Part shown: piece by piece, positions 3,892 through 18,338 of the stretch
Layout: each line of letters starts with the position of its first letter
Numbering within the stretch: position 1 is the stretch's first letter
Translations under genes and position numbers: made by a program
Origin: a virus
Direction: 5' to 3' (one strand)
Length of the DNA stretch: 35,305 bases
IMG/VR virus record: IMGVR_UViG_3300027806_000096
Location: 1 to 35,305 of that record
The notes under the pieces: model-generated
Told to the model about the DNA's origin: nothing
Databases searched by the model: none
The model's input: only the letters and a program-made list of their open reading frames with translations

Positions 3892-5367
3892 TTACGGCTG
3901 GGTCAGCGACTGAAGTTCAGCGTTCGTGAGGCGGGTGTTATAGAGAGCAGCGGCACGGATGCGGTCGTTGAGGATAGTGCCTCCGTTAAGGCTTCCCAAA
4001 TCAACTTTATTCGTTGCGGGAATGAGGCAAGATGTGACCGTTCCAACGCTTGTTCCGTTCAGGTATAGTGCGATATTGTTTTGAGCGTATCCGAGCGCAA
4101 GTTTATTAACTCCCGCAGGCATTACTGCGCTGAAATCAGCCTGATTGCTTGATAAACGATTGACCGTAACACGGATTCTATCAGGAGAAAGTAATTGCAA
4201 ATTGATTGCATTGGCCCCTGTTCCATCCGATAGAGCGATGACCCTTGCGCTGTTTGCAAAGTTCCTCACATCCACCTCCACATAAATCGTCCCTTGTTGC
4301 TGCCCGATGGACCCGCTGACCGCTCCGCTCACCGAGATGACATCTGCGCTTCGGCTTCCCGTGCCTGTGGTGGTGGGGATGTAGGAGGTGGCAATGCTTC
4401 CCGCTTCAAACTGCGCCCCCCAAGTGTAGGCGGTGAGGTTGAGTGCGCCTGATGCGGGCCAAGATAAATCTCCGTTGCCTTCGGCCATAAAAAATGAAAG
4501 CGTTCCATTTAAGTCACCTGCCGCCAATGTGTAAGGAGGAGTTGTTAGACGATACCATCCATTTCCGTAATTTTGAACGCTTGCACCTGCGGTCAAAGCC
4601 GTTCCACTTGCAAGGTTGAAATATGAATAAATTGTGCCAGTTCCTCCAGCATAATTTTCAATCCCCAAGGCACAAAAATTCAGCGGATTAGTTGCTCCAC
4701 GCTTTACAAATAAACTATAAGTGTGAGCGCCTGAAGCGGATGCGACAATGCCTCCCCCTGTATAATAAGCATATTGAGTTGTACCACTCGCTGCGCCACC
4801 GACATACTTGGTTATGCTTCCACTCGTTCCGTCGGGTGCAAGGAAATCCGTGCTGCCCGTTGTTATTGTCATTCCTCCTGATGCCGCAGGGGTATCTTGA
4901 GCGGTCATTTGATTGACCCAACGAGCCAAGTTCGTCGCCGCAGGCTCCACGAGCAAAGCAGGACACCCCGTCACGCCGCCGCTTGTGTAGTAGTCCAAGC
5001 GGGGGATGCCCGATGCTACGGATTCAATCAAGCCCGCAGAATCAAACCGCCGTGCCGCCGTGTTGCGGGTAACGGTGAAGTCGGCGTTAGAACTAGGAAT
5101 CTGTGAATACAGCGTTCCACTCTTGAATCTCGCGGGAACAATGACAAGAGACGGCTTTGTAGCCGTCTTGGTGTACAAACTCTTAAACCGGTCGTACAAA
5201 CATCCATTCACCGCTGCCTCTGGTGCATCAGCGCTACCTGCATTTGCTCGGTTGTTAAACGAGTTCCAAATCTGCCTTGCAGGGTCTGTAAGCAAAGCAA
5301 AAGTCGTATGAGCCCTACGACCTCGTAGCGCTCTACCATTCGGGTCTTTACTACCCCTCGTAGGCAT
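3892..5367 (-). CDS. Tail fibre / receptor-binding protein with LamG-like C-terminus
   Basis: A 491-residue virion protein. Residues 34-61 hold a fixed-length module (W-x2-FN-x-RA ... EAA-x3-CL-x2-RF) that recurs in two other genes. Residues about 70-145 (PSLVIVPARFKSGTLYS ... CPALLVEPAATN) match the second fibre at 19.2 kb. The middle is a beta-rich carbohydrate-binding-like region ending in YTWGAQFEAGSIATSYIPT, a signature common in phage fibre proteins. The last 140 residues look like a concanavalin/LamG fold closing with ALYNTRLTNAEL. It probably binds the host surface. Its start overlaps the preceding gene by 17 nt. An 89-bp part (4301-4389) is nearly identical to the other fibre gene. 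Confidence 0.8.
   Translation of the reverse strand: MPTRGSKDPNGRALRGRRAHTTFALLTDPARQIWNSFNNRANAGSADAPEAAVNGCLYDRFKSLYTKTATKPSLVIVPARFKSGTLYSQIPSSNADFTVTRNTAARRFDSAGLIESVASGIPRLDYYTSGGVTGCPALLVEPAATNLARWVNQMTAQDTPAASGGMTITTGSTDFLAPDGTSGSITKYVGGAASGTTQYAYYTGGGIVASASGAHTYSLFVKRGATNPLNFCALGIENYAGGTGTIYSYFNLASGTALTAGASVQNYGNGWYRLTTPPYTLAAGDLNGTLSFFMAEGNGDLSWPASGALNLTAYTWGAQFEAGSIATSYIPTTTGTGSRSADVISVSGAVSGSIGQQQGTIYVEVDVRNFANSARVIALSDGTGANAINLQLLSPDRIRVTVNRLSSNQADFSAVMPAGVNKLALGYAQNNIALYLNGTSVGTVTSCLIPATNKVDLGSLNGGTILNDRIRAAALYNTRLTNAELQSLTQP
4301..4389. repeat. 89-bp block shared with second fibre gene (copy 1)
   Basis: Aligned by eye with 19576-19664 without gaps, 86 of 89 positions are identical, far above the surrounding similarity. 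It encodes the SYIPTTTGTGSRSADVISVS segment and the following GAVSGSIGQ. It is likely a recombination or gene-conversion tract. Confidence 0.85.
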
Positions 5368-5938
5368 CGGTCATCAATTCAATCTGGAAAGCATTTAATG
5401 CCCCAGAACCAGCAGTGAATCCTCCTAAAGACTGAAGCACCCCAACGAGCGTCCCCGTGGCAGCAAACTCCTGACGGATTCCAGGCCCAGGAGCGCCAAT
5501 GCCTGTAACTCCAGGCACCGTGACCCTAGGCGCCAAAGAACGCTGAAAGCAAATCCTAGCCGTATCTACAATGCTGAACGAACCACTAGCCGTATTGACC
5601 CAAGTGGTAAAATCTAAATACCCGACATACTTAGGGGCATCCGCATAAGCCACCACCATCACGGAGTTGTTTGCAACGGTCGTACCACTAGAAAGGGTCT
5701 CCCCCGAAGCCAAGGTATACAAATGAAGCCTAAGACCAGAAGAGATACCTGAAGCATTGGTGTCGGTGAAAATCTTGCCCTTGGTTACATAACCATTGCC
5801 AAACATAGTCTCTGCAAGACCCAAAAACACGGTCCCGGTGTCAGTCGTGCCCGTTGTTGAGCAAATTCGTACACCGCCAGTTGCGTATGTGATACTACCA
5901 GTAGGCCGAGTAATCGTAGCCGTAGAAATGCGAATCAT
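5351..5938 (-). CDS. Putative virion protein (Thr/Gly/Ser-rich)
   Basis: 195 residues, rich in Thr, Gly, Ser and Val with predicted beta strands throughout and almost no charged clusters, as expected for a virion surface or neck protein. The start is MIRISTATITRPTGSITYA at 5938. It sits just downstream of an intrinsic terminator and directly before the tail fibre, overlapping it by 17 nt. A small beta-rich protein (20638-20919) occupies a comparable place near the other fibre but I cannot align the two. I do not recognise a named family; capsid decoration, fibre base and tail accessory protein are all possible. Confidence 0.65.
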   Translation of the reverse strand: MIRISTATITRPTGSITYATGGVRICSTTGTTDTGTVFLGLAETMFGNGYVTKGKIFTDTNASGISSGLRLHLYTLASGETLSSGTTVANNSVMVVAYADAPKYVGYLDFTTWVNTASGSFSIVDTARICFQRSLAPRVTVPGVTGIGAPGPGIRQEFAATGTLVGVLQSLGGFTAGSGALNAFQIELMTDAYEG

Positions 5939-5965
5939 AGGTATGTCTTTAGTCAGTTATTCAAC

Positions 5966-6000
5966 AAAAAAGGGGAGGATGCGGTTCGCATCCTACCCCC
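5966..6000 (-). terminator. Intrinsic terminator before virion genes
   Basis: On the minus strand a 7-bp stem (GGATGCG/CGCATCC) with a 3-nt loop is extended by a GGGG/CCCC clamp across a small bulge and is followed by six Ts. It ends about 28 nt before the ATG of the 5938 gene. It may end the glycosyltransferase transcript or attenuate a leader starting at the box at 6082-6089. Confidence 0.8.
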
Positions 6001-6081
6001 TTAATGTCCCAACAACCCCTAACCCTCCTTTGGACAACCACGAACCAAAAGCTTAGGCTGTGAGAAACTCAAATCGTACTC

Positions 6082-6089
6082 CAAAGATA
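6082..6089 (-). promoter_or_regulatory. Putative -7 promoter element
   Basis: The minus strand reads TATCTTTG (TAnnTTTG), 18 nt after the glycosyltransferase stop codon and about 80 nt before the terminator at 5966-6000. The roughly 110 nt between box and terminator hold no open frame of note, so a short untranslated RNA or attenuated leader is possible. Confidence 0.35.
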
Positions 6090-6107
6090 ATGGATGTTTC
6101 CCTAATA

Positions 6108-7193
6108 CTACCTTTTATTGACCAGTTTTTCGTACACACTGACTCTTTTTTCGTACACTTTTCGGTAGTCAAAGTCCCTCAGAACTGTTTCCTGTAAGTT
6201 TTTGGCAAGCTCATCACGCATATCCTTGTCGTTGATGAGCATCTTCGTGTACCGGTACCATGCGCCGGACTCCTTCTCCCCGACCAGTAACCCGTTGACA
6301 TTGTGCTTGATAACGTCTTCGTACTGCGGGATCTTGGAGCAAATCAGTGGCTTACCCATAATCCCTGCTTCAACGCATTTAAGCTCAGAGCGGTAATGGT
6401 TGAACTTGTCCGCTCTCAAGGGGGCGTAACAGACATCCACCTCGTTGTACCCAAAGGCGTACTCATAAACGCTCATAGCGTTGATCCTGGCGTAGTTCGC
6501 ATTCCGGTACCCGGCCGTGAAGACGTTCTCGTAAGCCTTGTAGGCTTCGTTGTCGTTCCATCCGGCACAAACCAAGAGGTACTTCCCGTTCAAGGACTTG
6601 TCCTTGTAGAGCGACTTCATGGACTCGGCCATCAAGTTCACGTCCGGAATGTGCTGCGCACCACCGAACCAACCGAACCTGACCTTCTCAGACTGCGTAG
6701 GATGCGCTACAAACGACTCCATCCCTTCGGGGTATGGAGTGTTAGCCACAACGGTTACATTGCTGTTGAGAGGCTCTATGCGCTCCTGGAGGTGTGTTGT
6801 CGTACAGAACACGTGATCGGCCAGGGAGATATTCAAAGCCAGCCGGTGGGGCAGCTTCTGGTCCTTGTAGTGCTGGTACATGTGGTGGTCCGATGGGAGC
6901 ACCCAGTAGTCATCGTAGTCCAGGACGATCTTGGCGCCATGCTTACGCAGGTAGTCAAAGACCTCACGGATTTTGTCATCCTCGTCAATGTGCAGGTTCC
7001 TCGAGATGAGGAACACATCCACGGTCTTGACGAGTTCGTCATCAATGTCCGGGATCTGTTTGAAGTTCGTCAGCAGGAACCGGTCCGCTTTCTCCTTTTG
7101 CAACCACAGGTTGGGCATCGCTAGCCGGTACAGGCTCGCTCCCGTCTCCTCCTGGTGGAATATCGTCCCCAGGTGTATCTTTCCGTCTTTCAT
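6108..7193 (-). CDS. Glycosyltransferase (GT4-like)
   Basis: 361 residues with a GT-B type layout. The N-terminal half has GASLYRLAMPNLWL and VLDYDDYW, the linker region IRFGWFGGAQH-like motif reads VRFGWFGGAQHIPD, and the nucleotide-sugar half has CVEAGIMGKPLICSKIPQYE, which carries the Glu-x7-Glu type motif of family 4 enzymes, followed by HNVNGLLVG. It probably transfers a sugar to a virion protein, phage DNA or a host surface glycan; the acceptor cannot be read from sequence. A paralogue lies at 25.2 kb. Its first 152 nt overlap the 3' end of the preceding gene in another frame; both glycosyltransferases align from the first residues, so this start is sound. Confidence 0.87.
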   Translation of the reverse strand: MKDGKIHLGTIFHQEETGASLYRLAMPNLWLQKEKADRFLLTNFKQIPDIDDELVKTVDVFLISRNLHIDEDDKIREVFDYLRKHGAKIVLDYDDYWVLPSDHHMYQHYKDQKLPHRLALNISLADHVFCTTTHLQERIEPLNSNVTVVANTPYPEGMESFVAHPTQSEKVRFGWFGGAQHIPDVNLMAESMKSLYKDKSLNGKYLLVCAGWNDNEAYKAYENVFTAGYRNANYARINAMSVYEYAFGYNEVDVCYAPLRADKFNHYRSELKCVEAGIMGKPLICSKIPQYEDVIKHNVNGLLVGEKESGAWYRYTKMLINDKDMRDELAKNLQETVLRDFDYRKVYEKRVSVYEKLVNKR

Positions 7194-7443
7194 GCTCGTC
7201 AGTCTCCACCAATAACTCCTTAAACTTCTTTTCGTTCGGAGCTAGTTCGGACCAACCTTCCAGCATGTACTTCTCTAGTTGTCGAATTGTGTTGTAGCGG
7301 GTCGAGTGTTTCCCCTGCTTCTCTTCCTTTTGGCCCTTCAGATAAGCCTTTAGGGCTTTATTCGTGGCCCGGCGTTCTTCCTTGTAGGCTTCATATTCCA
7401 TCCCTTCGGGACGCTTGTGGAGGATGTTAAAACTTGTCTGCAT
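7042..7443 (-). CDS. Conserved phage helical protein with low-complexity tail
   Basis: 133 residues from the ATG at 7443, which overlaps the primase-helicase stop by 17 nt. The N-terminal motif NILHKRPEGMEYEAYKEERR followed by NKALKAYLKGQ is familiar from small proteins of many Bacteroidetes phages, function unknown. Residues about 45-82 are charged and helical. The last 50 residues are Pro, Asp, Glu and Gly-rich and are encoded in DNA that also encodes the glycosyltransferase N-terminus in another frame. This tail could be overprinted on the older enzyme gene. A role in the replication module is suggested only by position. Confidence 0.65.
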   Translation of the reverse strand: MQTSFNILHKRPEGMEYEAYKEERRATNKALKAYLKGQKEEKQGKHSTRYNTIRQLEKYMLEGWSELAPNEKKFKELLVETDEHERRKDTPGDDIPPGGDGSEPVPASDAQPVVAKGESGPVPADELQTDPGH

Positions 7444-9292
7444 TGAGGTAGCGGTTTTTAAGTTTAATTTCAATAGATGCTGGGTCGATATGCGAGGAAG
7501 ACATCGATAGCGTGTTCGGGTCAAAGTTGTATACCACGTTCACGGTCTCTCCAGAATCCCTCTTGTCGAAGAGGCGAAGATAACCAACATCCGTCCGGTA
7601 AACGACGTCATCATTCGAGGTCCTCTCCGTGTCCACCACAAGGCTGCAGGAGATGAAGATGTCTGCATTGTCGTAAATCTTTCCGCTACCACGCAGGTAG
7701 GGAGTCAAGTCCCGAGTGTGCCTCGGGATGTTCTTCGTGACGTGGACCAAAGCAACGATCGGGATGTTCAGCTCGTTGGCGAGATACTTCAGCTCCCGGG
7801 TGTGCTTCTCCGCTGAATCCTTCTCCCCACCGCTGTCTGCCATCATGGACAACCCATCCACCACGAACATGTCTATCTTGCCATAGGCGTTCTCCACCTG
7901 CTCGACGATGGAGCGGTAGTGCGCCGCGTTGGACGCTAGCTTGTAGTCCACGATGATACGCTTGCTAAAGTCGTCCTTGAGCATCTCTTGGACCTTCTTG
8001 GTAGCTTCCTCCCGATCGGAGGAGTAGAGCTCCTTAAACTCGTCCCAGAGCTTCTTGTGGGCATAGCCATCACGGTACATGTTGATGCTTCGCTTGAGGA
8101 ACTGCGTACGAGACATCTCTTGGTTGTTGTAGATACCACGCATGCCGTTCCTTGCGTTGCGGAACATGATCTCTTGAGCGTAGAGCGACTTCTTAGTGCC
8201 ACCCTGCCCGGCAAGCACGATGAGCTTGCCCTTGAGGTCTCCCTTGATTAGGTCGTTGAACTCGTCAAATGCTAGGTCGTACGTACCGCTCTTCTCGTCC
8301 AGGGCGTTCAAGATGTCCGGAATCTGCTCATGCAGGGCGAACCAGGTCTTCACTCCATCACCGGCCTCTGCTTTCACTTGGGTACGCTGTTGGGCCGACC
8401 GAGTAATGTTGTAGAGCTCTTTGTAGTCTAGCGGGTTGGTACCCGCATCGTTGAGCCCAGAGAGTATCTGCATGATGTCGTAGAACTTGAACTGGCTCTT
8501 GTCAAAGAGCGCACAAGCTTGTTTGAATAGCTTGTTGTTCCTGTCGCCCTCCGTAGGGGGCGAAAAGAGACCTCCATCCTCCTTCTTCCGATCGGACCCC
8601 ACCTCATGGCTGTAATCGTCCGTGTAGCATGCATACTCCCACGTTTCAATGAGGCGCTTGTTGGGACGTGCCGGGTTGACCTCGGCACTGAATCGGAAGG
8701 TCGGGTTGGGAACTTCAGCGTAGAAGGAAATCTCCTCGATGTCCTGGGTCATGAAGTCTTCGTAGCGCAGGCCGCTCTTGTACAAGCCGCTATCCGGATG
8801 ACGGGAGTTGATGGCCCGAAAGGCTCTGTTGTTGTTGTAGATGCCATGGTCCACGCTGGTGATACCATCCGTAAGCGAAGCGACAAGGCGCTTCACTCGA
8901 GCTGGCAAGTCGGGAGATGGGGCAAACCCGCCAAACAAGGAGGAGTGGATTCCGATGTGGAAGCCTTTCTTCCCAGAGAAGCAGATGTAGACCTGGCTTG
9001 GGTCCACTAGGTACTCGGAGACGAGTTTCTTCACGAACTCCTTGGACGATTGGAAAGCCAAGGATACATCGGCATTGTCGATGTCCACCCAGAGGATGTT
9101 CATGTAGAACTCCCCTCTGTAGCCCTTTACGGAGCCGTTTACGGCAAAGTGATTCCGGATGGACTCTCCATACTGAAACAGGGAGGTATAGCGTTCATGG
9201 TCGCAAGACTCGTAACCGATGTCTTCGAGGTGAACAATCCGAGCGTTTTGATTGCGGCTCTGTATCGAGCCGTCGATAAGTTCTGTGTACAT
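7427..9292 (-). CDS. Primase-helicase fusion (AEP primase + RecA-like helicase)
   Basis: 621 residues with two recognisable halves. The N-terminal half looks like an archaeo-eukaryotic-type primase: metal-binding DID at 70-72 within LWVDIDN, the FSGKKGFHIGIH motif at 105-116, and the DHG motif at 148-150 followed by AFRAINSRH. The C-terminal half is a RecA/DnaB-type ATPase with Walker A GQGGTKKS at 362-369, Walker B IDMFVVDG at 473-480 and a downstream HVTK motif. Such a protein would make primers and unwind DNA at the phage fork. A TATCTTTG box sits 17 nt upstream. A second replicative helicase, of plain DnaB type, is encoded at 12.2 kb, which is unexpected in one phage. Confidence 0.87.
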   Translation of the reverse strand: MYTELIDGSIQSRNQNARIVHLEDIGYESCDHERYTSLFQYGESIRNHFAVNGSVKGYRGEFYMNILWVDIDNADVSLAFQSSKEFVKKLVSEYLVDPSQVYICFSGKKGFHIGIHSSLFGGFAPSPDLPARVKRLVASLTDGITSVDHGIYNNNRAFRAINSRHPDSGLYKSGLRYEDFMTQDIEEISFYAEVPNPTFRFSAEVNPARPNKRLIETWEYACYTDDYSHEVGSDRKKEDGGLFSPPTEGDRNNKLFKQACALFDKSQFKFYDIMQILSGLNDAGTNPLDYKELYNITRSAQQRTQVKAEAGDGVKTWFALHEQIPDILNALDEKSGTYDLAFDEFNDLIKGDLKGKLIVLAGQGGTKKSLYAQEIMFRNARNGMRGIYNNQEMSRTQFLKRSINMYRDGYAHKKLWDEFKELYSSDREEATKKVQEMLKDDFSKRIIVDYKLASNAAHYRSIVEQVENAYGKIDMFVVDGLSMMADSGGEKDSAEKHTRELKYLANELNIPIVALVHVTKNIPRHTRDLTPYLRGSGKIYDNADIFISCSLVVDTERTSNDDVVYRTDVGYLRLFDKRDSGETVNVVYNFDPNTLSMSSSHIDPASIEIKLKNRYLNADKF

Positions 9293-9309
9293 GTTGTGGT
9301 TGTTTCATG

Positions 9310-9317
9310 CAAAGATA
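9310..9317 (-). promoter_or_regulatory. Putative -7 promoter element before primase-helicase
   Basis: The minus strand reads TATCTTTG in the 26-nt gap between the metallophosphoesterase stop and the primase-helicase ATG at 9292, leaving a leader of only about 10-12 nt. No clear -33 element. Confidence 0.4.
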
Positions 9318-9318
9318 A

Positions 9319-10209
9319 TCAGTACATCCGTGTGCAGGCTGTGAAATCCGAAACTACTTTGATTTCGTCCAGGCTGTCCTTCCTCCCGCGTAAACGAACG
9401 AGTTCAAGCTGCAGCCAGTAACCGCCCAATGGCTTTGGGCCACGACCCCTCTCCACGTGGAATCCTCCAACGCCGCCATCCCATTCCTCCTTGTAGGTGG
9501 CAGTTCTTATCTGATCGATGTGTCTTTGTGAAATTTTTCTGTTATGAGGATCGTAGCGATGAACGATGTTGATGTGGTGATACAACTCATGCACGTGGCC
9601 CTGCCAGGTGCAGTTGTAGCCTTCCACTGAAGCCATGATACGCTGGTCTTGAATGACGCCCTTGGTGACCACGCCTCCGCCTCCGGAACCGTGGAAGTAG
9701 TGAATTACGTATTGACGGCCTTTGTTTTTGCCAACCGGTGGGTCCATAAGCACGGAGAAGATTCCGCCGTATCCGCCTACTTGGATGTTGGTGCCGTTCT
9801 GGTAGTTCATCACATCCGCAAAGCGTCGCAGGATGTCGGTCTCTTGGTGCTTGAGTACGCCGGTCTCATGGTTTCCATAACCTAGCAAGACCAAGTGGTT
9901 TGCGTATGGCTTGAACCATTCCACCGCTGTCTCGATGATGGAGTCCAGGTAACGGCCGTTGTTGTGCTCAGGGCGGATGTCGTCCTTACTCCTACGAGGA
10001 TCGCCTTTCCCTTGCATAAGGCAAAAGAAGTCTCCGTTCACTACGATGGCTGCATTCCTGCGGACTGCTTCGTCTAGGTGGTTCTTGAGGAGGTCCCGGT
10101 CGCAATGCGGGTTGTCCCAGTGCAGGTCCGATAGGAGTAGGAACAACTGCTTAGGACCGACTTTTGAAACGTGGACGTTTGGTCCAAATCTTTCGAGGTT
10201 AATGATCAT
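9319..10209 (-). CDS. Calcineurin-like metallophosphoesterase (copy 1)
   Basis: 296 residues carrying the full set of two-metal phosphoesterase motifs: SDLHWD (27-32), NGDFF (58-62), YGNHE (111-115), the histidine in IHYFHG (170-173) and GHVH (204-207). Family members hydrolyse phosphodiesters or phosphomonoesters; in phages they are found near replication genes, but the substrate here is unknown. The ATG at 10209 is preceded by the C-rich leader typical of this part of the window. A close paralogue at 17454-18338 is collinear over nearly the whole length, with long shared stretches such as NGDFFCLMQGKGDPRRSK. The final residues (SDFTACTRMY) differ from the copy. Confidence 0.9.
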   Translation of the reverse strand: MIINLERFGPNVHVSKVGPKQLFLLLSDLHWDNPHCDRDLLKNHLDEAVRRNAAIVVNGDFFCLMQGKGDPRRSKDDIRPEHNNGRYLDSIIETAVEWFKPYANHLVLLGYGNHETGVLKHQETDILRRFADVMNYQNGTNIQVGGYGGIFSVLMDPPVGKNKGRQYVIHYFHGSGGGGVVTKGVIQDQRIMASVEGYNCTWQGHVHELYHHINIVHRYDPHNRKISQRHIDQIRTATYKEEWDGGVGGFHVERGRGPKPLGGYWLQLELVRLRGRKDSLDEIKVVSDFTACTRMY

Positions 10210-10236
10210 TGCTTTGGTTTTAGGGGTTGGGGGATT

Positions 10237-10497
10237 TTACAAAGACTGCAATTCCGACTTGACATTAAATAGGTAAGCATTTTTTTCTATGTAATAATCT
10301 TTTACAAGTCCTAATAAATATAACTCACCATTTTGAATAATCATTTCATCAACTGCAATCAAAGAATATTTCTTTGCAACAGCGACCGTATTGCCACACC
10401 TATCAACACATTGCATACACCCTTCACAATCTGACGGAAATCGTAGTTCAGAAAAGTATTTATTAAATAAATCGTTTGCTTTTTCTTTTGGGGTCAT
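10237..10497 (-). CDS. Small helical protein with Cys cluster insert
   Basis: 86 residues. The start MTPKEKANDLFNKYFS and the later segment AKKYSLIAVDEMI match a short helical protein family frequent in Bacteroidetes phages, where the two parts usually lie close together. Here they are separated by a segment with the cysteines C-x2-C-x3-C (DCEGCMQCVDRCGN, with a further Cys before), which could bind a metal. The C-terminus is helical (NVKSELQSL). The gene is AT-rich relative to its neighbours and begins a run of small accessory genes. Function unknown. Confidence 0.65.
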   Translation of the reverse strand: MTPKEKANDLFNKYFSELRFPSDCEGCMQCVDRCGNTVAVAKKYSLIAVDEMIIQNGELYLLGLVKDYYIEKNAYLFNVKSELQSL

Positions 10498-10500
10498 GGC

Positions 10501-10803
10501 TTAAACGATTTCGGGGATGGGCATCCAATAGTTGACCTCGCTGGTAAACCAGGCGTGGTTCTCGGAGTGCCACTTACCAGTGTACATATCACGCCAAGCA
10601 ACGATTTGCAATCCTTCAATATCAGTAATTAGGACGGGTTCGTTAAATTCGGGCATTTGGTCTTGGGGTCTTATCCACTGGCTTGATTTTATATGCTTTG
10701 CAAACGACTCCACAAATTTAGCGGCCACCGAATATCCCATCCAGTAGTTTAAGTTTACACCTATCGGTTCAGCAAGTTCGTAAAATTTATTTATTGCGTT
10801 CAT
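10501..10803 (-). CDS. DUF551-like protein (copy 1)
   Basis: 100 residues. The C-terminal 60 residues fit the DUF551 pattern of phage accessory proteins: WIRPQDQMPEFNEPVLITD, then TGKWHSENHAWF and a terminal YWMPIPEIV. The first 40 residues (NAINKFYELAEPIGVNLNYW) are an extra helical part that its tandem partner lacks. It stops 3 nt before the next gene start. A 37-nt block (10555-10591) is identical to 10867-10903 in the partner. The molecular function of DUF551 is not known. Confidence 0.75.
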   Translation of the reverse strand: MNAINKFYELAEPIGVNLNYWMGYSVAAKFVESFAKHIKSSQWIRPQDQMPEFNEPVLITDIEGLQIVAWRDMYTGKWHSENHAWFTSEVNYWMPIPEIV

Positions 10804-10806
10804 GGC

Positions 10807-11001
10807 TTATGGTTTAGGGAGTTCGGGTATAGGCATCCAGTAAACGACTTCACGGGGCCACCATCTGTGGTTCTCGGAGTGCCACTTACCAGTGTACATA
10901 TCAATCCAAGCGACGTTTTGCTCTCCTTCCTTGTCAGTAATCAACACGACTTGGCCCTTCTTGGGCATTTGGTCTTGAGTTCGTATCCAGGGCATGGTCA
11001 T
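10807..11001 (-). CDS. DUF551-like protein (copy 2)
   Basis: 64 residues if started at the ATG at 11001, which overlaps the stop of the upstream small gene as ATGA; the frame is open further upstream but that part looks like a shadow of the other gene. It contains the whole DUF551 core: WIRTQDQMPKKGQVVLITD, TGKWHSENHRWW and YWMPIPELPKP. Tandem partner of the 10501-10803 gene, with one identical 37-nt stretch, so the pair arose by duplication or has been homogenised by gene conversion. Function unknown. Confidence 0.75.
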   Translation of the reverse strand: MTMPWIRTQDQMPKKGQVVLITDKEGEQNVAWIDMYTGKWHSENHRWWPREVVYWMPIPELPKP

Positions 11002-11150
11002 GCGTTTTTGGCTTGAAGGATTCTTCCGAGCAGGGTCCAGTTCACTCTCCACGGAGAAATGGTTTCGGAGCGGTCGGGGCGGCTGCAAGACACGCACTCC
11101 TTGCGGATGTGGATTTGCCAGCGGCGGAAATCGGTGGGGGTTGGTTTCAT
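10998..11150 (-). CDS. Small Cys-containing protein (50 aa)
   Basis: A short frame from ATG 11150 (MKPTPTDFRRWQIHIRKECV) to an ATGA overlap with the DUF551 copy 2 start. It has a C-x2-C pair (ECVSC) followed by a basic and aromatic stretch. The ATGA coupling and a C-rich leader like those of neighbouring genes support it being real, but the product is short and I recognise no family. Confidence 0.5.
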   Translation of the reverse strand: MKPTPTDFRRWQIHIRKECVSCSRPDRSETISPWRVNWTLLGRILQAKNA

Positions 11151-11173
11151 GGGTTAGGGGTTAGGGGTTGGGG
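11151..11173 (+). repeat. G-quadruplex-type motif upstream of small gene
   Basis: The plus strand has four G-runs (3, 4, 4 and 4 Gs) with loops TTA, TTA and TT, directly abutting the ATG of the minus-strand 11150 gene. It fits the canonical intramolecular quadruplex pattern. The same segment on the minus strand is the C-rich leader of that gene. Confidence 0.6.
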
Positions 11174-11178
11174 TGATA

Positions 11179-11361
11179 CTACATATACCGCACTTTGACA
11201 TCTTTTTTGTTTTCAAGTGCATTTTTTGCATATTCATAAGCCTGTCTAACTTGTCTATCGTGGCAAGTTTCGCCTTTACTACTATTGTGAATCCGTGAAG
11301 TTATCCTTAATGCTTCAATGATTGTTTTTAATTGAAACTTGTAAATCGTTATTTCTTCCAT
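11179..11361 (-). CDS. Small hypothetical protein (60 aa)
   Basis: 60 residues, predicted mostly helical (YKFQLKTIIEALRITSRI, then VRQAYEYAKNALENK), with a single Cys-His pair in the middle. Its leader (11362-11400) contains three or four copies of a CCCCAA-type unit on the coding strand. Codons are AT-rich like those of the other accessory genes in this section. I recognise no family. Confidence 0.55.
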   Translation of the reverse strand: MEEITIYKFQLKTIIEALRITSRIHNSSKGETCHDRQVRQAYEYAKNALENKKDVKVRYM

Positions 11362-11430
11362 TTTTCGTTTATGGTTTAGGGGTTGGGGGTTGGGGGTTGG
11401 ACAAATATGCGAGTTATAAGCAATAAAAAA

Positions 11431-11643
11431 TTACCGCTTTACATCTTCAAGGTTGCCGTGGTATTGTTCTGTAATAGAAATTCCAGTTGGGTATTCATCT
11501 TCACATCCATCATAGTAAGCCACAATTGTTGCTTTTGTGCCATCACTAAATTGCATTTCTAAAAAACCATCACTATCGTCTCCTATTAACTTCTTTTGTT
11601 TTACCGCAACAATTGTTTTTCCAATTAAATCTTCAAATTTCAT
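11431..11643 (-). CDS. Small hypothetical beta-rich protein (70 aa)
   Basis: 70 residues starting MKFEDLIGKTIVAVKQKK, with alternating hydrophobic strands (GFLEMQFSDGTKATIVAYY) and a final charged strand. The pattern of a short domain that measures 'function of G-K-x-I' followed by DG-turns recalls small beta-barrel proteins annotated without function in many phages. Its ATG overlaps the stop of the upstream lipoprotein gene (11640-11643), so the two are coupled. Confidence 0.6.
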   Translation of the reverse strand: MKFEDLIGKTIVAVKQKKLIGDDSDGFLEMQFSDGTKATIVAYYDGCEDEYPTGISITEQYHGNLEDVKR

Positions 11644-11840
11644 TTGGATTTGGGGTTAATGGTTTGGAATAATCTATATTTCCCGCATTTTGCGGTTATG
11701 TTTTTTACCTGCGGCCCGAAGCCGTTGCTTCGGGATAGCACATACTCGCAAGCATCCCCCTTGGGCCGAACCTCAATCACCTTCCAAGGGCGGTTGTTGG
11801 TGCAGGCGGTCAGCAGGAATAGGAGCAGGAAGCGGCGCAT
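11640..11840 (-). CDS. Small lipoprotein
   Basis: 66 residues. The N-terminus MRRFLLLFLLTACTNNRP is a compact lipoprotein signal: two arginines, a run of Leu/Phe and a lipobox LTAC with Cys13 as the likely lipidated residue. The mature part of about 53 residues has two more cysteines (CEY and CGKY) that may form a disulphide in the periplasm. Phage lipoproteins of this size can act in superinfection exclusion or as outer-membrane spanins; context gives no decision, since no lysis gene is adjacent. A TATCTTTG box 4 nt before the ATG suggests its own leaderless promoter. Confidence 0.7.
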   Translation of the reverse strand: MRRFLLLFLLTACTNNRPWKVIEVRPKGDACEYVLSRSNGFGPQVKNITAKCGKYRLFQTINPKSK

Positions 11841-11844
11841 GGGT

Positions 11845-11852
11845 CAAAGATA
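11845..11852 (-). promoter_or_regulatory. Putative -7 promoter element before lipoprotein gene
   Basis: The minus strand reads TATCTTTG, ending 4 nt before the ATG at 11840, in the 20-nt gap after the nuclease stop. A transcript starting at the usual distance would have almost no leader. Confidence 0.45.
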
Positions 11853-11860
11853 TAAACACT

Positions 11861-12190
11861 CTACCCACATTCAGCCAACACCCGTTGGAATTCTTCCACG
11901 GAGCGAATGACCTCGTACCTGTACCCCGCCTCCTGAACCACCCCCTGCCACCACTTTTGGGATAGGGACTGCTTGCCCTTGGATGTTTTAAATTCCAAGA
12001 ACACCGCTCCCTTGGGTGATAGGTAGGTCATGTCGGCAACCCCAGCGGTCAGCCCGATGCCTTTGAGGAAGAAACCGTTGGAGCGGGAGCGGGGGTTGTT
12101 GAGGTTCAAAAATAGCAAACCCTGCTCGTTGGGTCGGAGTATTGCGAACAACTTGACGCAGGCGGCTTGGAGGTTGTATTCTTCCATCAT
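11861..12190 (-). CDS. VRR-NUC domain nuclease
   Basis: 109 residues from the ATG at 12190, chosen because it overlaps the helicase stop as ATGA. The PD-(D/E)xK-type VRR-NUC signature is clear: GLTAGVADMTYL with Asp53, FLEFKTSKGKQS with Glu66 and Lys68, and Gln74, followed by QKWWQGVVQEAGYRYEVIRS. Such single-domain nucleases in phages cut branched or flap DNA during recombination and replication. It sits at the end of the initiator-helicase transcript, fitting a role in processing replication intermediates. Confidence 0.87.
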   Translation of the reverse strand: MMEEYNLQAACVKLFAILRPNEQGLLFLNLNNPRSRSNGFFLKGIGLTAGVADMTYLSPKGAVFLEFKTSKGKQSLSQKWWQGVVQEAGYRYEVIRSVEEFQRVLAECG

Positions 12191-13467
12191 AGCGAATTGG
12201 GTGGGTATTCGTTGGCTTTGGTATAGGGAAGGTGACATTGGATGTTTGCGATGCCAAGGGAACCGTTGCGGTTCTTGCGGAAGATGACCTCCATCAAGTC
12301 GGCTGGCTGGTTCCTGTCGTGTTCGTAGGGACGATACACAAAGCCAATCTTGTCAGCATCAAACTCCAGTTGGCCCGTTTCCCGAAGGTCGGACATGATG
12401 GGGCGATGGTCGCTGCGTCCTTCCGTTGCACGGGATAGGGATGACACCACCACCCCGAACACCTTCTGCCGTTTGCAGATTGCTTTGAGGGTCTTGGATA
12501 TGTTGGTCATCTGCTCAATTTTGGGCTTGGCCTTGTCAATCTTGGTCGGCTCAACGAGTTGCAGGTAGTCCAAGTAGAATCCGCAAATCCCATACTTGGT
12601 TTTGAGTTTGGCGATTTCGCCTTCGATGCGGTCCAAGTTCGCTTGGTGTAAGTCCACGATGTAGAGCGGTTTGGATTTTAGGAGGTCCGCTTTTTGGCCA
12701 AGGTCCATGAAATCTTTTGTGCTGATTCGCTCGGTCGGGTTTAAAAAGTGCGCCCCGTCCATGGTGGCGAGGTTGGAAAGCATCCGCTGGGTGAGTTGCT
12801 CCGCTGACATTTCAAGCGTGAAGAAGACCACGGGAATATCGGCCATGGCTTGATTCATTGCTATTTGCAGGGCCAAGAGGGTTTTGCCCATTGCGGGACG
12901 ACCGCCAAGGAGGATGAACTCCGTGGGCTTGAACCCCGTCATCATTCGGTCCATCGGGCTGATGTAGGTCGGGAAAATAGAATCCTTGCGTCTTCCTTCA
13001 CGGACCTCGTTCATGTTCATGAGGTAGGTCTTGGCGAGTTCGTGGGCCGTGGTTTCGGTGGCGTTGGTTTCAATGGCTTGCATGGACTGATAACGGGCGA
13101 AGGCTTTGGGGATGTCCCTGTCATGGGCCAACTCGTCCATAATCCTTTGTTCCTCCCTTTGCTTCCATGCTTCGTTGAGGTCCGAGGCATAGACCTTCCA
13201 ATCAGAGGTCAGCGTGTTGCCGTCCAAGATGTCCACAAATTCAGCGATGACATGGGCTTGACCGTTGTCAATGAGGTGCTTGTGAACGGCTACCAGGTCC
13301 ACGGGTCGCTCTGCTCGGTGGAGGTATTCAATAGCCCTGTAAACGAGGACATGGTTTCCCGTGAATAGGCGTTCGGGGATTTGCAGAAGGAGGACCGCTC
13401 GGTTGGTAAACTGGTCCATGAGGCAGGACAGGAGCCGCCGTTCAGCGGTAAGATGGTAAGGGTTCAT
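12187..13467 (-). CDS. dnaB: Replicative DNA helicase, DnaB-like
   Basis: 426 residues with the two-domain DnaB layout. The N-terminal helical domain starts MNPYHLTAERRLLSCLMDQF and is joined by a linker (about 100-150) to a RecA-like motor with Walker A GGRPAMGKT (188-196), a FFTLEMSAEQL motif (215-225), Walker B ICGFYLDYLQL (294-304), and the SDLRETGQLEFDAD segment (359-372). It should form a hexamer that unwinds DNA at phage forks. It follows the initiator gene with a 26-nt overlap and is coupled to the VRR-NUC gene. It is unrelated in architecture to the primase-helicase at 7.4 kb, and no DnaG-type primase is seen nearby. Confidence 0.93.
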   Translation of the reverse strand: MNPYHLTAERRLLSCLMDQFTNRAVLLLQIPERLFTGNHVLVYRAIEYLHRAERPVDLVAVHKHLIDNGQAHVIAEFVDILDGNTLTSDWKVYASDLNEAWKQREEQRIMDELAHDRDIPKAFARYQSMQAIETNATETTAHELAKTYLMNMNEVREGRRKDSIFPTYISPMDRMMTGFKPTEFILLGGRPAMGKTLLALQIAMNQAMADIPVVFFTLEMSAEQLTQRMLSNLATMDGAHFLNPTERISTKDFMDLGQKADLLKSKPLYIVDLHQANLDRIEGEIAKLKTKYGICGFYLDYLQLVEPTKIDKAKPKIEQMTNISKTLKAICKRQKVFGVVVSSLSRATEGRSDHRPIMSDLRETGQLEFDADKIGFVYRPYEHDRNQPADLMEVIFRKNRNGSLGIANIQCHLPYTKANEYPPNSL

Positions 13468-14146
13468 CGTCGGTTTGGTTTAGTGGGTTGAAGGTAGCGT
13501 TCCTTGGGATTACTTGGTCCTCCCAGCGGCCTTGGTTTAGGTAGGTGGCTGCGTGGGGGACGAACTGCACGGGGGTTTCGGAGTAGAGGCGGGCGATGTT
13601 GTTGATAGCCTTCTGCTGGTCTTCATCCTTCAACTTGGCGAAGGCTTTGGATGCGGACTGCTTGGAGGTCTTGCGGGGGTAGAGGGCCCAAAATTGGTCA
13701 AACAGGACACAAGTATTTTCTCCTCTCTTCTTCTCTTCTCTTCTCTCCTCTTCTCTATTGAACACAGGTTCAACCTTAGTTGAAGGTAGGTTCAACATAG
13801 GTTCAACCTTAGTTGGACTTTCTTCAACCTTTGCTGACCTCCTTTCGGCACTCCGCTTCCCCGCTTGGGACATCTTGGTCCGATGCAGGTTGGCTTCCTC
13901 CCATTGGATGTCAAGGAACTTGATGAAGACCGACGGCCCGTTGGATTCTACCAATCGGGTTTGGAGTAACCGTTCAAGATGCCCATCGGCTTCCAGTTCG
14001 GCGTGTTCGGTTGACATCTCGCATTCTGCGTTCCAATAGACGCAACACAATCGGATGAAGGCCACCTGCACCTCGGCGGGTTGGCGGGATATTCGGCCCA
14101 TCATCCAATCGGCTGGGCAGAACTTGAACCATGATATTTGCTTCAT
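13442..14146 (-). CDS. Replication initiation protein (O-like)
   Basis: 234 residues. The N-terminal 90 residues (ISWFKFCPADWMMGRISRQP ... VAFIRLCCVYWNAECEM) match the winged-helix replisome-organiser type found in phage initiators. A charged linker at about 105-145 contains the repeated peptide TKVEP and an Arg/Glu-rich tract. The C-terminal part (FDQFWALYPRKTSKQSASKA, PHAATYLNQGRWED) is the domain shared by many phage O-like proteins. It probably binds the origin and loads the DnaB-like helicase encoded next. The DNA of the linker carries iteron-like repeats. The ATG lies 4 nt after the T-run of a strong terminator, so expression may depend on antitermination. Confidence 0.82.
   Translation of the reverse strand: MKQISWFKFCPADWMMGRISRQPAEVQVAFIRLCCVYWNAECEMSTEHAELEADGHLERLLQTRLVESNGPSVFIKFLDIQWEEANLHRTKMSQAGKRSAERRSAKVEESPTKVEPMLNLPSTKVEPVFNREEERREEKKRGENTCVLFDQFWALYPRKTSKQSASKAFAKLKDEDQQKAINNIARLYSETPVQFVPHAATYLNQGRWEDQVIPRNATFNPLNQTDDEPLPSYR
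13716..13830. repeat. Candidate replication origin: iteron-like repeats and pyrimidine tract in the initiator gene
   Basis: The core TTCAACCT (one copy TTCAACAT) starts at 13769, 13791, 13802 and 13823, spacings 22, 11 and 21, so close to whole helical turns. Two copies belong to a 17-nt exact repeat (13766-13782 and 13799-13815), and 13769-13784 is an inverted repeat. Immediately beside it, 13716-13756 is 41 nt of unbroken pyrimidines on the plus strand. Phage lambda has its origin iterons inside the O gene in the same way. Confidence 0.55.
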
Positions 14147-14270
14147 GAGTAAAAAAAAAGCCCCAACTGATTCAGGCAGTCGGGGCAGGGTTAAAGCGGC
14201 TAACCCTTAGTCGGACGCATCGTGTGGCCTGAATTACACACGGGCGTTATTGGTAAATGTAATCTTCGGG
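14147..14270 (-). ncRNA. Structured leader or small RNA before the initiator gene
   Basis: Between the SSB-like stop (14281) and the initiator ATG (14146) the minus strand holds a promoter-like box and three hairpins in order: 14221-14242 (6-bp stem, 10-nt loop), 14188-14206 (6-bp stem, 7-nt loop) and the terminator 14160-14186 (10-bp stem, 7-nt loop). The entire terminator loop CCTGAAT is complementary to ATTCAGG in the first loop, allowing a 7-bp kissing contact. No open frame fills it. It may be a discrete small RNA of about 110-120 nt or an attenuator for the replication genes. I know no matching named RNA family. Confidence 0.55.
14151..14186 (-). terminator. Strong intrinsic terminator 4 nt before initiator ATG
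   Basis: On the minus strand GCCCCGACTG pairs with CAGTTGGGGC (10 bp including one G-U) around the loop CCTGAAT, followed directly by nine Ts. The ATG of the initiator begins 4 nt after the T-run. Confidence 0.85.
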
Positions 14271-14278
14271 CAAAGTTA
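14271..14278 (-). promoter_or_regulatory. Putative -7 promoter element for the structured leader
   Basis: The minus strand reads TAACTTTG (TAnnTTTG) 2 nt after the stop codon of the SSB-like gene. It lies about 90 nt before the terminator hairpin, so it would drive the structured leader. No clear -33 element is visible. Confidence 0.45.
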
Positions 14279-14280
14279 CA

Positions 14281-14526
14281 CTAAAACGGCATATCTCCAG
14301 CCTGTGGTTCAAATGCGTTGGCGGGACGGGATTCGTTCATCGGCTCGACTTTGCCACTCAAGAACTTTCTCTCGCCGTTTCTTGATTCTCGAATCCATGC
14401 GGACAGGCGCATCTTGGTCCCGTCGGGCAGGACGACTTCGCCCCTGTAATCGGGACGCTTCGGGTTGTCACCTTTGTCGTTGGCGAACAGGGTGAAGGTG
14501 TTGGGTTGGGGGGTGTAATCGCTCAT
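14281..14526 (-). CDS. SSB-like small protein
   Basis: 81 residues. The core (NTFTLFANDKGDNPKRPDYR, GEVVLPDGTKMRLSAWIRES, GERKFLSGKVEP) has the strand pattern of small OB-like or DUF736-like phage proteins. The protein ends in a flexible Pro/Ala-rich stretch and the tip GDMPF, which resembles the acidic Asp-Pro-Phe tip with which single-stranded-DNA-binding proteins contact partners. It lies between winged-helix genes and the replication initiator and is coupled by ATGA (14523-14526) to the gene before it. A role in coating or handling single-stranded DNA is inferred. Confidence 0.6.
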   Translation of the reverse strand: MSDYTPQPNTFTLFANDKGDNPKRPDYRGEVVLPDGTKMRLSAWIRESRNGERKFLSGKVEPMNESRPANAFEPQAGDMPF

Positions 14527-14750
14527 GGGTTTTGGGTTGGGGTTTGGTTAGGTTGAATTGAGTATTTGCAGTTTTCCAGTACGAGCCAATTTGAGGCCCG
14601 TAAATCGCTTAGGATTCGGTAGGTGGTACGAAGGTTCACCCCAAGCACTTCGGCGAGTTCTGTGGCCCTGTATGGGCGTTGTGCGAGGTATGACACGGCG
14701 TAGATGGTGGCCACTCTTCGTTGGATTTCTTTTCCTTTGGGTTTGGGCAT
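14523..14750 (-). CDS. Small winged-helix protein (tandem copy 1)
   Basis: 75 residues from the ATG at 14750 (MPKPKGKEIQRRVATIYAV); upstream in-frame codons overlap the partner gene and are unlikely. The body reads LAQRPYRATELAEVLGVNLR followed by TTYRILSDLRASNWLVLENC: a helix-turn-helix with recognition helix around RTTYRILSDL and a short beta wing. It resembles IclR/MarR-type DNA-binding domains without an effector domain. The neighbouring gene is a paralogue. Probably a regulator of early or replication genes. Confidence 0.7.
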   Translation of the reverse strand: MPKPKGKEIQRRVATIYAVSYLAQRPYRATELAEVLGVNLRTTYRILSDLRASNWLVLENCKYSIQPNQTPTQNP

Positions 14751-14752
14751 GG

Positions 14753-14974
14753 TTAGGGGTTTATGGTTAGCCAGTAGTAAGACCTGTCGCTTTGCAACCA
14801 CCCCGTTGCTTTGAGGTGGGTAATGATTCGGTAGGTTTGGCGGAGGGGCAAATCTACGGCCTCGGCCAATCGTTCAACACGCATGGGCTTGTTGAGCAGT
14901 AGGTACACGGCCTTGACCGTTGCGTTGCGGTTTCGGCGTTGGGAGCCTCTCTTTTGTATGGGTTGTTCGGGCAT
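14753..14974 (-). CDS. Small winged-helix protein (tandem copy 2)
   Basis: 73 residues with a basic N-terminal arm (KRGSQRRNRNATVKAV) and the same winged-helix body as its neighbour: LLLNKPMRVERLAEAVDLPL, RQTYRIITHLKATGWL, and a closing strand YYWLTINP. Residue-by-residue similarity to the neighbour is clear around the recognition helix (TYRI--L-A--WL). Two such domains encoded side by side could form a heterodimer or bind adjacent operator halves. Probably a regulator. Confidence 0.7.
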   Translation of the reverse strand: MPEQPIQKRGSQRRNRNATVKAVYLLLNKPMRVERLAEAVDLPLRQTYRIITHLKATGWLQSDRSYYWLTINP

Positions 14975-17031: not shown

Positions 17032-17457
17032 ATGCGCCAAATAACCCACCTCGTCGTGCATTGCACGGCTACGCCGAAGAACACCACCATCGCCAGCATC
17101 CGCAAACATTGGAAGGAGGGGCTTGGCTGGAAGGCGGTGGGGTATCACAAGATTGTAGAACCCAACGGGAACATCATGACCTTGGCTACCGACGACAAAG
17201 TCACCAACGGGGTTGCTGGACACAACGCCACGAGCCTGCATGTGTCCTACATTGGCGGGAAGGACACGGATGACCGAACCATCCAGCAGAGGCAAGCCAT
17301 CGCAGGGGTGCTTCTTTCTTGGTTGCAGAAGTACCCCAAGGCCCGCATTTGTGGCCATCGGGACTTCCCAGGGGTGACCAAGGCTTGCCCGCAGTTTAAT
17401 GCTGAAAAAGAATACGGTTACCTTTACTTGACCGCCTCCGATACGCAGGAGGGTTAG
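17032..17457 (+). CDS. N-acetylmuramoyl-L-alanine amidase endolysin
   Basis: 141 residues, the size of T7-lysozyme-like amidases. Visible zinc ligands are His10 in VVHCTAT, His109 in ICGHRDFPG and Cys119 in TKACPQFN; Tyr38 in VGYHKIVEPNG fits the catalytic tyrosine. It cuts the bond between muramic acid and the stem peptide. No signal peptide or cell-wall-binding domain is seen. It is on the plus strand, opposite to all other lysis and structural genes, and overlaps the stop of the metallophosphoesterase by 4 nt tail-to-tail. Together with the GH19 enzyme at 2.5 kb the window encodes two chemically different endolysins. Confidence 0.93.
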   Translation: MRQITHLVVHCTATPKNTTIASIRKHWKEGLGWKAVGYHKIVEPNGNIMTLATDDKVTNGVAGHNATSLHVSYIGGKDTDDRTIQQRQAIAGVLLSWLQKYPKARICGHRDFPGVTKACPQFNAEKEYGYLYLTASDTQEG

Positions 17458-18338
17458 TACAACCTATCCGCAGGGGTGAAGGTGGCGTGCAGTTGCAACT
17501 CTGGTCCCTTGTTGTCCTTGCTACTATTCCGTGATGTTTCCAACTTCATCCAATATCCGCCAAGAGGCTTCGGGCCTCGTCCTCGTTCAGTGTGAAATCC
17601 CATATAACCGCCGTCCCATTCTTCTTTGTAAGTAGCCGTACGAAGTTGGTGAATAGGTTTTTGAAGAAGTGTTTTGGTCGAGCGGTCATATCGGTGAATC
17701 ATGTTTTGGTGGTAGTACAATTCGTGGACATGGCCCATCCAAGTCAAGTCGTAGCCTTCGGTGGATGCGAGTAACCGTTGGTCGGCAATTACTCCACGGG
17801 TGACCACCCCACCCCCTGCGCTCCCATGAAAATAATGCACTACAAAGTTGACCCCACGGATTGCATCGTGCAGCACTCGGATGTCAATCGTGCCGCCGTA
17901 GCCACCGACCTCAACTGCTGACCCCGTGGCGTAGTTCAGCGTGCTTGCGAAGCGTTGCAGTATGTCGGTTTCTTGGTGGTGGATGATGGAGGTTTCGTGG
18001 TTGCCATATCCAACAAGCAGCAGGTTCTTGGCGTAGGGGGCAAACCATTCCACGGCGGTGTTGACGATGGAATCCAAATAGCGGGCGTTGTTGTGTTCTT
18101 CACGGATATCTTCCTTGCTCCGTCGTGGGTCGCCCTTGCCCTGCATCAAACAAAAAAAGTCACCATTAACGATGACTCCTGCGTTGCGCCGTTGGGCTTC
18201 CTTTAGGTGGTTGGTCAGCAGCCCCCTATCGCAATGGGGGTTATCCCAATGCAGGTCGCTGATTAGAAGAAACTCCTGCCCGCTTTGGCAGGTGACTTCG
18301 TGGATGTTTCGGGTGTGCTTAGTGGTTGGCAGAATCAT
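17454..18338 (-). CDS. Calcineurin-like metallophosphoesterase (copy 2)
   Basis: 294 residues with the same motif set as the copy at 9.3 kb: SDLHWDNPHCDRG, NGDFFCLMQGKGDPRRSK, VGYGNHETS, VHYFHGSAGG, MGHVHELYYH. All metal ligands are present, so both copies should be active. Substrate unknown. Its start overlaps the membrane coiled-coil gene by ATGA (18335-18338), tying it to the lysis/tail transcript, whereas copy 1 lies beside the primase-helicase. The two copies are in the same orientation and flank the replication module, a possible recombination arrangement. Confidence 0.9.
   Translation of the reverse strand: MILPTTKHTRNIHEVTCQSGQEFLLISDLHWDNPHCDRGLLTNHLKEAQRRNAGVIVNGDFFCLMQGKGDPRRSKEDIREEHNNARYLDSIVNTAVEWFAPYAKNLLLVGYGNHETSIIHHQETDILQRFASTLNYATGSAVEVGGYGGTIDIRVLHDAIRGVNFVVHYFHGSAGGGVVTRGVIADQRLLASTEGYDLTWMGHVHELYYHQNMIHRYDRSTKTLLQKPIHQLRTATYKEEWDGGYMGFHTERGRGPKPLGGYWMKLETSRNSSKDNKGPELQLHATFTPADRLY

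Follow-up and report, generated by a model that had tools for sequence, protein, structure and literature searches.

In an IMG/VR virus record we found a noncoding RNA, predicted from its sequence, that lies ahead of the replication initiator gene and carries two hairpin loops complementary to each other. Comparison with related sequences establishes the architecture of this RNA, the strand from which it is read, the pairing of its loops (through covariation), its independence from the gene downstream, and the hypervariability of the paired loops. These always-matched, changing loops suggest RNA-based control, perhaps with self-recognition. The stretch that we analyzed, here called the window, is the whole record of 35,305 bases.

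A structured RNA flanked by an SSB-like gene and the replication initiator

The predicted RNA belongs to a minus-strand cassette that runs from a single-strand DNA binding-like (SSB-like) gene through the RNA to the initiator and then to a DnaB helicase gene (Table 1). The portal gene is elsewhere in the window, away from the RNA. Read along the minus strand, the TAG stop codon of the SSB-like gene (14281 to 14283) is followed by TG, TAACTTTG, a 9-nt spacer, TACATTTA, hairpins P1, P2, and P3, nine T's, ACTC, and the ATG of the initiator (14146). An earlier sequence-only reading had noticed a box 2 nt past the upstream stop, which the sequence places at 14278 to 14271, and had described three hairpins and a nine-T terminator ending just before the ATG; its coordinates were right, and sequence and fold both agree with them. 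The predicted free energy of the fold is -38.3 kcal/mol, compared with -24.9 kcal/mol (SD, 3.3) for shuffled sequences (z = -4.1), and none of 200 shuffles equaled it. Together with a predicted promoter and terminator of its own, this bears out the description of the locus as a compact structured RNA. The G+C-rich 10-bp stem of P3 and the T run behind it have the form of an intrinsic terminator. The same reading had placed the RNA ahead of a replication initiator, and in relatives, too, mostly replication genes follow.

Two further features of the window were observed. Adjacent small ORFs at 10501 to 10803 and 10807 to 11097 are clearly related (a tandem duplication), and two related metallophosphoesterase-like genes (9319 to 10209 and 17454 to 18338) are separated by about 8 kb.

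Table 1. Features of the predicted RNA and its surroundings (positions in the window)
Feature	Positions	Strand	Description
SSB-like gene	14281..14526	-	phrog_18154; upstream of RNA
Candidate operator	14258..14280	.	Dyad TGTAA-N13-TTACA over both promoter boxes
Box 1	14271..14278	-	TAACTTTG; sigma-A -7 box (TAnnTTTG); perfect fit to consensus
Box 2	14254..14261	-	TACATTTA; nearer to P1
Predicted RNA, whole	14151..14266	-	116 nt from box 1 (+1 at 14266); ~99 nt from box 2 (+1 at 14249)
Hairpin P1	14215..14247	-	4 + 6 bp; loop TAATTCAGGC (14236-14227)
Kissing segment 1	14228..14234	-	ATTCAGG, in P1 loop; C at 14227 can give an eighth pair
Hairpin P2	14187..14207	-	8 bp; 5-nt loop
Hairpin P3	14160..14186	-	Terminator stem; 10 bp; 7-nt loop
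Kissing segment 2	14170..14176	-	CCTGAAT, the entire terminator loop
Terminator tail	14151..14159	-	Nine T's; ends 4 nt short of initiator ATG
Replication initiator/primosomal protein	13442..14146	-	phrog_9327, phrog_270; first gene downstream of RNA

Predicted promoter and start

The Bacteroidota sigma-A box has the sequence TAnnTTTG and is found at -12 to -5 in Flavobacterium (F. psychrophilum) (PMC9723704; PMC7366714). In relatives, the two free positions of box 1 vary (AC, AA, AT, and TC) and TA and TTTG are constant. Of 124 distinct RNAs, 120 have their nearest box 17 to 22 nt ahead of the kissing segment, and this holds for single-box relatives as well. With conserved boxes, free nn positions, and tight spacing, the region has the sequence features of a Bacteroidota sigma-A promoter, in which a TAnnTTTG box lies about 5 nt before the start. 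Because box 2 has the spacing of single-box relatives, transcription may begin at 14249 rather than 14266, or at both. The sequence-only reading had located TAACTTTG correctly, but the spacing to P1 seen in single-box relatives is that of TACATTTA.

The dyad that spans both boxes is retained or longer in relatives such as L062 (TGTAAAT/ATTTACA) and L031. Two small ORFs upstream (14523 to 14801 and 14753 to 14974) are winged-helix-like by weak matches, and it is possible that their products repress the promoter through the dyad. Scans for the consensus TAnnTTTG found none on the minus strand from 14271 to 12114 of the window and, among consensus boxes, none on the plus strand from 4575 to 14832 that could drive an antisense RNA.

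The loops of P1 and the terminator covary

All seven bases of the terminator loop, CCTGAAT, are matched by the reverse-complementary segment ATTCAGG of the P1 loop, and the chance of one such 7-nt complement in the roughly 100 nt upstream is about 0.6%. This match and its 8-nt version (14170 to 14177 with 14227 to 14234) had been reported to the base in the earlier reading. We then scanned for terminators with an unbiased pattern that did not require kissing and obtained 121 distinct contexts. In 119 of these, the P1 loop holds the full complement of the terminator loop; the exceptions are one unrelated sequence (L115) and one imperfect match (L111). In unbiased samples, the loop pair is perfectly Watson-Crick in 119 of 120 RNAs of the main family and in 28 of 29 of a diverged second family, whose one exception (L219) has a single mismatch. 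In L111, which is on the same contig as L303, the loops come from different types and match only in part. Both L111 and L219 are probably fresh recombinants or mutants, useful as natural test cases.

Since a kissing helix is a pseudoknot, which covariance models do not hold, pairs were counted with pseudoknot brackets on an alignment of 41 sequences. In the kissing helix, 98.9% of cells are paired; five of its seven pairs vary, each time on both sides, and there are no one-sided changes. For the entire structure, the paired fraction is 94.6%, compared with 29 to 50% when partners are slid by one to three columns. Every cell of the P3 terminator stem (100%) is paired. Sixty are G-U, a pairing that only an RNA of this strand could form, and these cells thereby fix the transcribed strand. 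Across 76 distinct RNAs, seven of them from the second family and the others from the main one, the kiss never contains a G-U pair; each could add an eighth pair, either G-C or G-U. The earlier reading had proposed a contact between the P1 and terminator loops and had named independent change of the two loops as evidence against it. Instead, the loops change with compensation over 22 types. By this comparative test, which we regard as decisive, the loop match is not due to chance and the contact, as judged by covariation, is real.

A portable module with many loop types

The RNA is present at several hundred IMG/VR loci, and one scan alone recovered 124 distinct sequences. A search based on the initiator gave 80 related contigs, and the layout was found in all that had enough upstream sequence. 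Further searches and a generic scan brought the number of loop-pair types to 22, with the terminator loops CCTGAAT, CTGGAAT, CCGGAA, CTGCAAT, CCTCTAC, CCGTAAT, CTGCGAC, CTGCTAT, and CCTCAAT; CCGGAAT, CCGCAA, CGGTCA, CCAGCA, CTACGAC, CTTCGAC, CTGCGAA, CTCCTAC, and CTGGTAT; and GCACCACC, CCTCACA (L029), CTGCTAC (L254 and L257), and CCGCTT (L334). In the most diverged RNAs, every stem sequence is different, yet P1 (about 8 to 14 bp), P3 (about 8 to 12 bp), and the kiss (6 to 8 bp) are kept. Main-family T runs stop 4 to 10 nt short of the following ATG; in the second family, this gap is 19 to 27 nt.

Genes that follow the RNA encode DnaD-like initiators of three kinds, VapE/BT4734 primases, a ParB-N/MT-A70 protein, and a DUF3223 protein. 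Since the downstream gene can belong to any of at least five unrelated families, most with roles in replication, the RNA behaves as a portable module. One loop type can accompany up to four downstream gene families, and the loops therefore serve no particular downstream protein. A ParB-N/MT-A70 gene is inserted between RNA and initiator in four contigs (L035 to L037 and L056), and L029, whose RNA is divergent, has an insertion of this kind as well. With another gene in between in L029, L035 to L037, and their relatives, the RNA need not be next to the initiator.

The inserts themselves resemble a ParB-N domain joined to an MT-A70 methyltransferase (L035, 1173 to 2486; L029, 1392 to 2297; L056, 87 to 1406), and similar genes come after the RNA in L179 and L213. 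In two phages with VapE primases (L253, 1240 to 1500; L255, 970 to 1230), another long terminator-like hairpin replaces the kissing RNA and is preceded by sequence resembling the 3' end of a tRNA.

Matched loops are hypervariable between near-identical phages

P1 and its matching loop are hypervariable even where the flanking genes are identical. Neither this variability nor the RNA's independence of the initiator gene had been noticed in the earlier reading, which also did not consider a contact between two molecules. Contigs L380 and L381 are identical over 600 nt downstream and 98.7% identical over 300 nt upstream, but their P1 hairpins are just 52% identical, and the terminator loop has been altered in step to match the new P1. 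The pairs L252/L251 and L226/L227 behave in the same way downstream. Between L004 and L006, 1 of 500 downstream nucleotides differs and 1 of 116 RNA nucleotides outside the kiss, compared with 4 of 14 within it. (The L006 contig has 71,351 bases, roughly double the 26 to 39 kb of most related records; it may be either a larger relative or a concatemer.) The pattern is a signature of selection for, or fast exchange of, matched specificity elements and not of slow drift. The likely route of loop change is recombination of whole RNA cassettes.

A possible attenuator of replication genes

Our preferred reading, to which we give a little less than an even chance, is that this RNA of about 100 to 116 nt is an attenuator of the replication operon, in which a type-specific loop-loop contact sets termination in a copy-number-dependent manner. 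Transcription would start at the Bacteroidota-type promoter, proceed toward the replication genes, and mostly halt at the RNA's own terminator, and the P1 and terminator loops would form a kissing helix of 7 to 8 bp. Because the terminator ends 4 to 10 nt before the ATG in most relatives and no consensus promoter separates the two, expression of the replication operon would depend on readthrough, which would make the element an attenuator by position. The terminated RNA is the likely regulator. Its loops would recognize loops of the same type, either their own or those of another copy (a nascent leader), and this recognition would set how often the polymerase terminates, giving negative feedback and copy-number-dependent expression of the replication genes. 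Acting in cis, the kiss could stabilize the terminator or postpone it; acting in trans, a completed RNA could pair with same-type leaders that are still nascent. That the contact forms or blocks the terminator, or controls replication, as the earlier reading had suggested, is likewise a proposal. The terminator looks strong by itself, and the effect of the kiss on termination could be small.

It is also possible, if somewhat unlikely, that the kiss is purely intramolecular and tunes termination or RNA stability in cis, with loops drifting freely as long as they stay matched. Both partners are always in one RNA, about 43 to 52 nt apart (84 nt in one case), and a rough estimate of linker geometry indicates that the linkers of most types reach, or nearly reach, for such a kiss. 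Phage contigs hold no other conserved partner: loop k-mers of a phage's own type are no commoner elsewhere in these contigs than those of other types, and no second target was seen. Under free drift, however, one would expect intermediates with one-sided changes or G-U pairs, which the kiss lacks; moreover, P1 has been replaced wholesale while unstructured linkers and flanks persist. In L254 and L334, the same rough estimate gives a tether of 43 to 49 Å, compared with 84 Å for a straight intramolecular kissing rod, and since the tether looks too short, pairing between molecules is favored there. In the phage RNAs ROOL and GOLLD, kissing loops that covary turned out to pair between molecules (PMC12286853), so covariation cannot separate cis from trans. 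Given how strongly the matched loops diversify, we lean somewhat toward trans or mixed action.

A type-specific attenuator that acted between molecules could extend to RNA self-recognition in apparently virulent phages, although we consider this doubtful: a resident's RNA would pair with the nascent leader of a same-type co-infector and limit expression of its replication genes. Rare loop types would then be favored, so that matched loops diversify like plasmid incompatibility groups, except that here both partners are in a single transcript. Avoidance of equal loop types within a sample was not seen in the main family, where 13 of 70 pairs were equal (9.6 expected), or in the second, where 6 of 8 were equal (1.9 expected). 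A strong incompatibility model might predict such avoidance.

We think it improbable that the element is a free-standing structural or scaffold RNA that forms loop-joined dimers or multimers without acting through the terminator, leaving downstream genes to leaky termination. Intermolecular kissing in ROOL and GOLLD (PMC12286853) provides a precedent, reciprocal kisses would presumably close a ring dimer without strain, and the lengths of P1 and P3 are kept despite different sequences. But the RNA always lies ahead of replication-type genes and never of packaging genes, and a scaffold gives no reason for fast-changing matched loops. Pairing in trans with host mRNAs, the internal kiss being an off state, would suit an RNA with its own predicted promoter and terminator and exposed 7-nt loops; since 22 unrelated loop sequences swap between near-identical phages, however, a conserved host target is unlikely, and this is a very improbable reading. 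The least credible is an element that acts as DNA or as a replication primer (an origin with hairpins whose RNA primer would stop at the run of T's), for which its position before the replication genes, whichever those are, would speak, but one-strand G-U pairs show selection on RNA and there is no sharp skew switch at the site.

Comparison with known RNAs

The sequence-only reading knew of no RNA family with this layout. Searches of the window with Rfam 15 agree, returning no match at the gathering cutoff and, in a permissive search, a best sub-threshold match to NsiR1 (23.3 bits versus the 39 needed). No homologue was found in 84,980 prokaryote genomes searched by protein and by a narrow RNA pattern, GenBank phages gave no match to DNA of two RNA types and the window region as queries, and we found no description of such an RNA in the literature. 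The RNA was also absent from the regions scanned in the cultured flavobacterial phages P12024S, phi46:1, mumin9-1, and phi19:1; in P12024S, mumin9-1, and phi19:1, the preceding gene overlaps or abuts the primase or initiator-like gene.

Among plasmids, control loops diversify into specificity types (incompatibility groups), and the kissing loops of ColE1 are 7 nt. As in pT181 and pIP501 attenuation, an RNA, here a putative control RNA, lies ahead of a replication gene with an intrinsic terminator in the leader, and as in pT181 (PMC3753616) and ColE1 RNAI/RNAII, complementary hairpin loops kiss, here as judged by covariation. Unlike in these plasmids, both loops are in one transcript from one strand, and the carriers are phages without a detected integrase. 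Because the defining antisense transcript is not predicted (there is no consensus TAnnTTTG on the plus strand between 4575 and 14832), we do not assign the RNA to the plasmid antisense-control class.

Like phi29 pRNA, ROOL, and GOLLD, this is a phage noncoding RNA with complementary loops; theirs join molecules, and their kisses covary (PMC12286853). It differs from them in its length of about 100 nt, its three hairpins, and its place beside replication genes rather than packaging or tRNA genes, and the Rfam models of all three gave no match. Identity with phi29 pRNA was rejected, as the fold has no paired 5'/3' end helix, the neighbors are replication genes, and the portal gene is elsewhere. 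A type III toxin-antitoxin RNA (ToxI-like) was also rejected: repeats and an endoRNase would be expected, whereas there is a single unit and the downstream genes are mostly for replication.

Phage P4 CI RNA and P1/P7 c4 RNA confer immunity by ending transcription early, ahead of genes for replication or for an antirepressor. The RNA described here resembles them as a short phage RNA with predicted termination before replication genes and type specificity through RNA pairing. Those, however, are immunity RNAs of temperate prophages, whereas no tyrosine integrase (PF00589) was found in 20 related, possibly incomplete, records and no copy was found in prokaryote genomes by protein or with the narrow RNA pattern. 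The absence of integrases from these records weakens a prophage-immunity reading. In the 3' untranslated region of bicoid mRNA, two complementary loops in one RNA can form closed dimers by two reciprocal contacts. A complementary loop pair within one RNA is the shared feature; unlike the phage RNA, bicoid concerns localization of a eukaryotic mRNA and has no terminator.

Hosts and significance

Since no integrase was found in the 20 records and no prokaryote genome matched, the carriers may be virulent phages. The promoter type, along with distant relatives of the portal and primase in flavobacterial phages, points to Bacteroidota hosts, and the carriers are probably many uncultured phages of Bacteroidota. 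The RNA represents a family of phage RNAs that is widespread and, it seems, has not been described before, and the covariation of its loops is exceptionally clean. It accompanies the replication modules of Bacteroidota-type phages regardless of which replication protein is encoded there. It is unusual for an RNA that is otherwise conserved to contain a loop pair that is hypervariable yet always matched to itself, and the natural loop types are ready candidates for orthogonal kissing pairs. If the contact acts between molecules, virulent phages would gain a device for copy counting and for telling self from non-self that is known mainly from plasmids.
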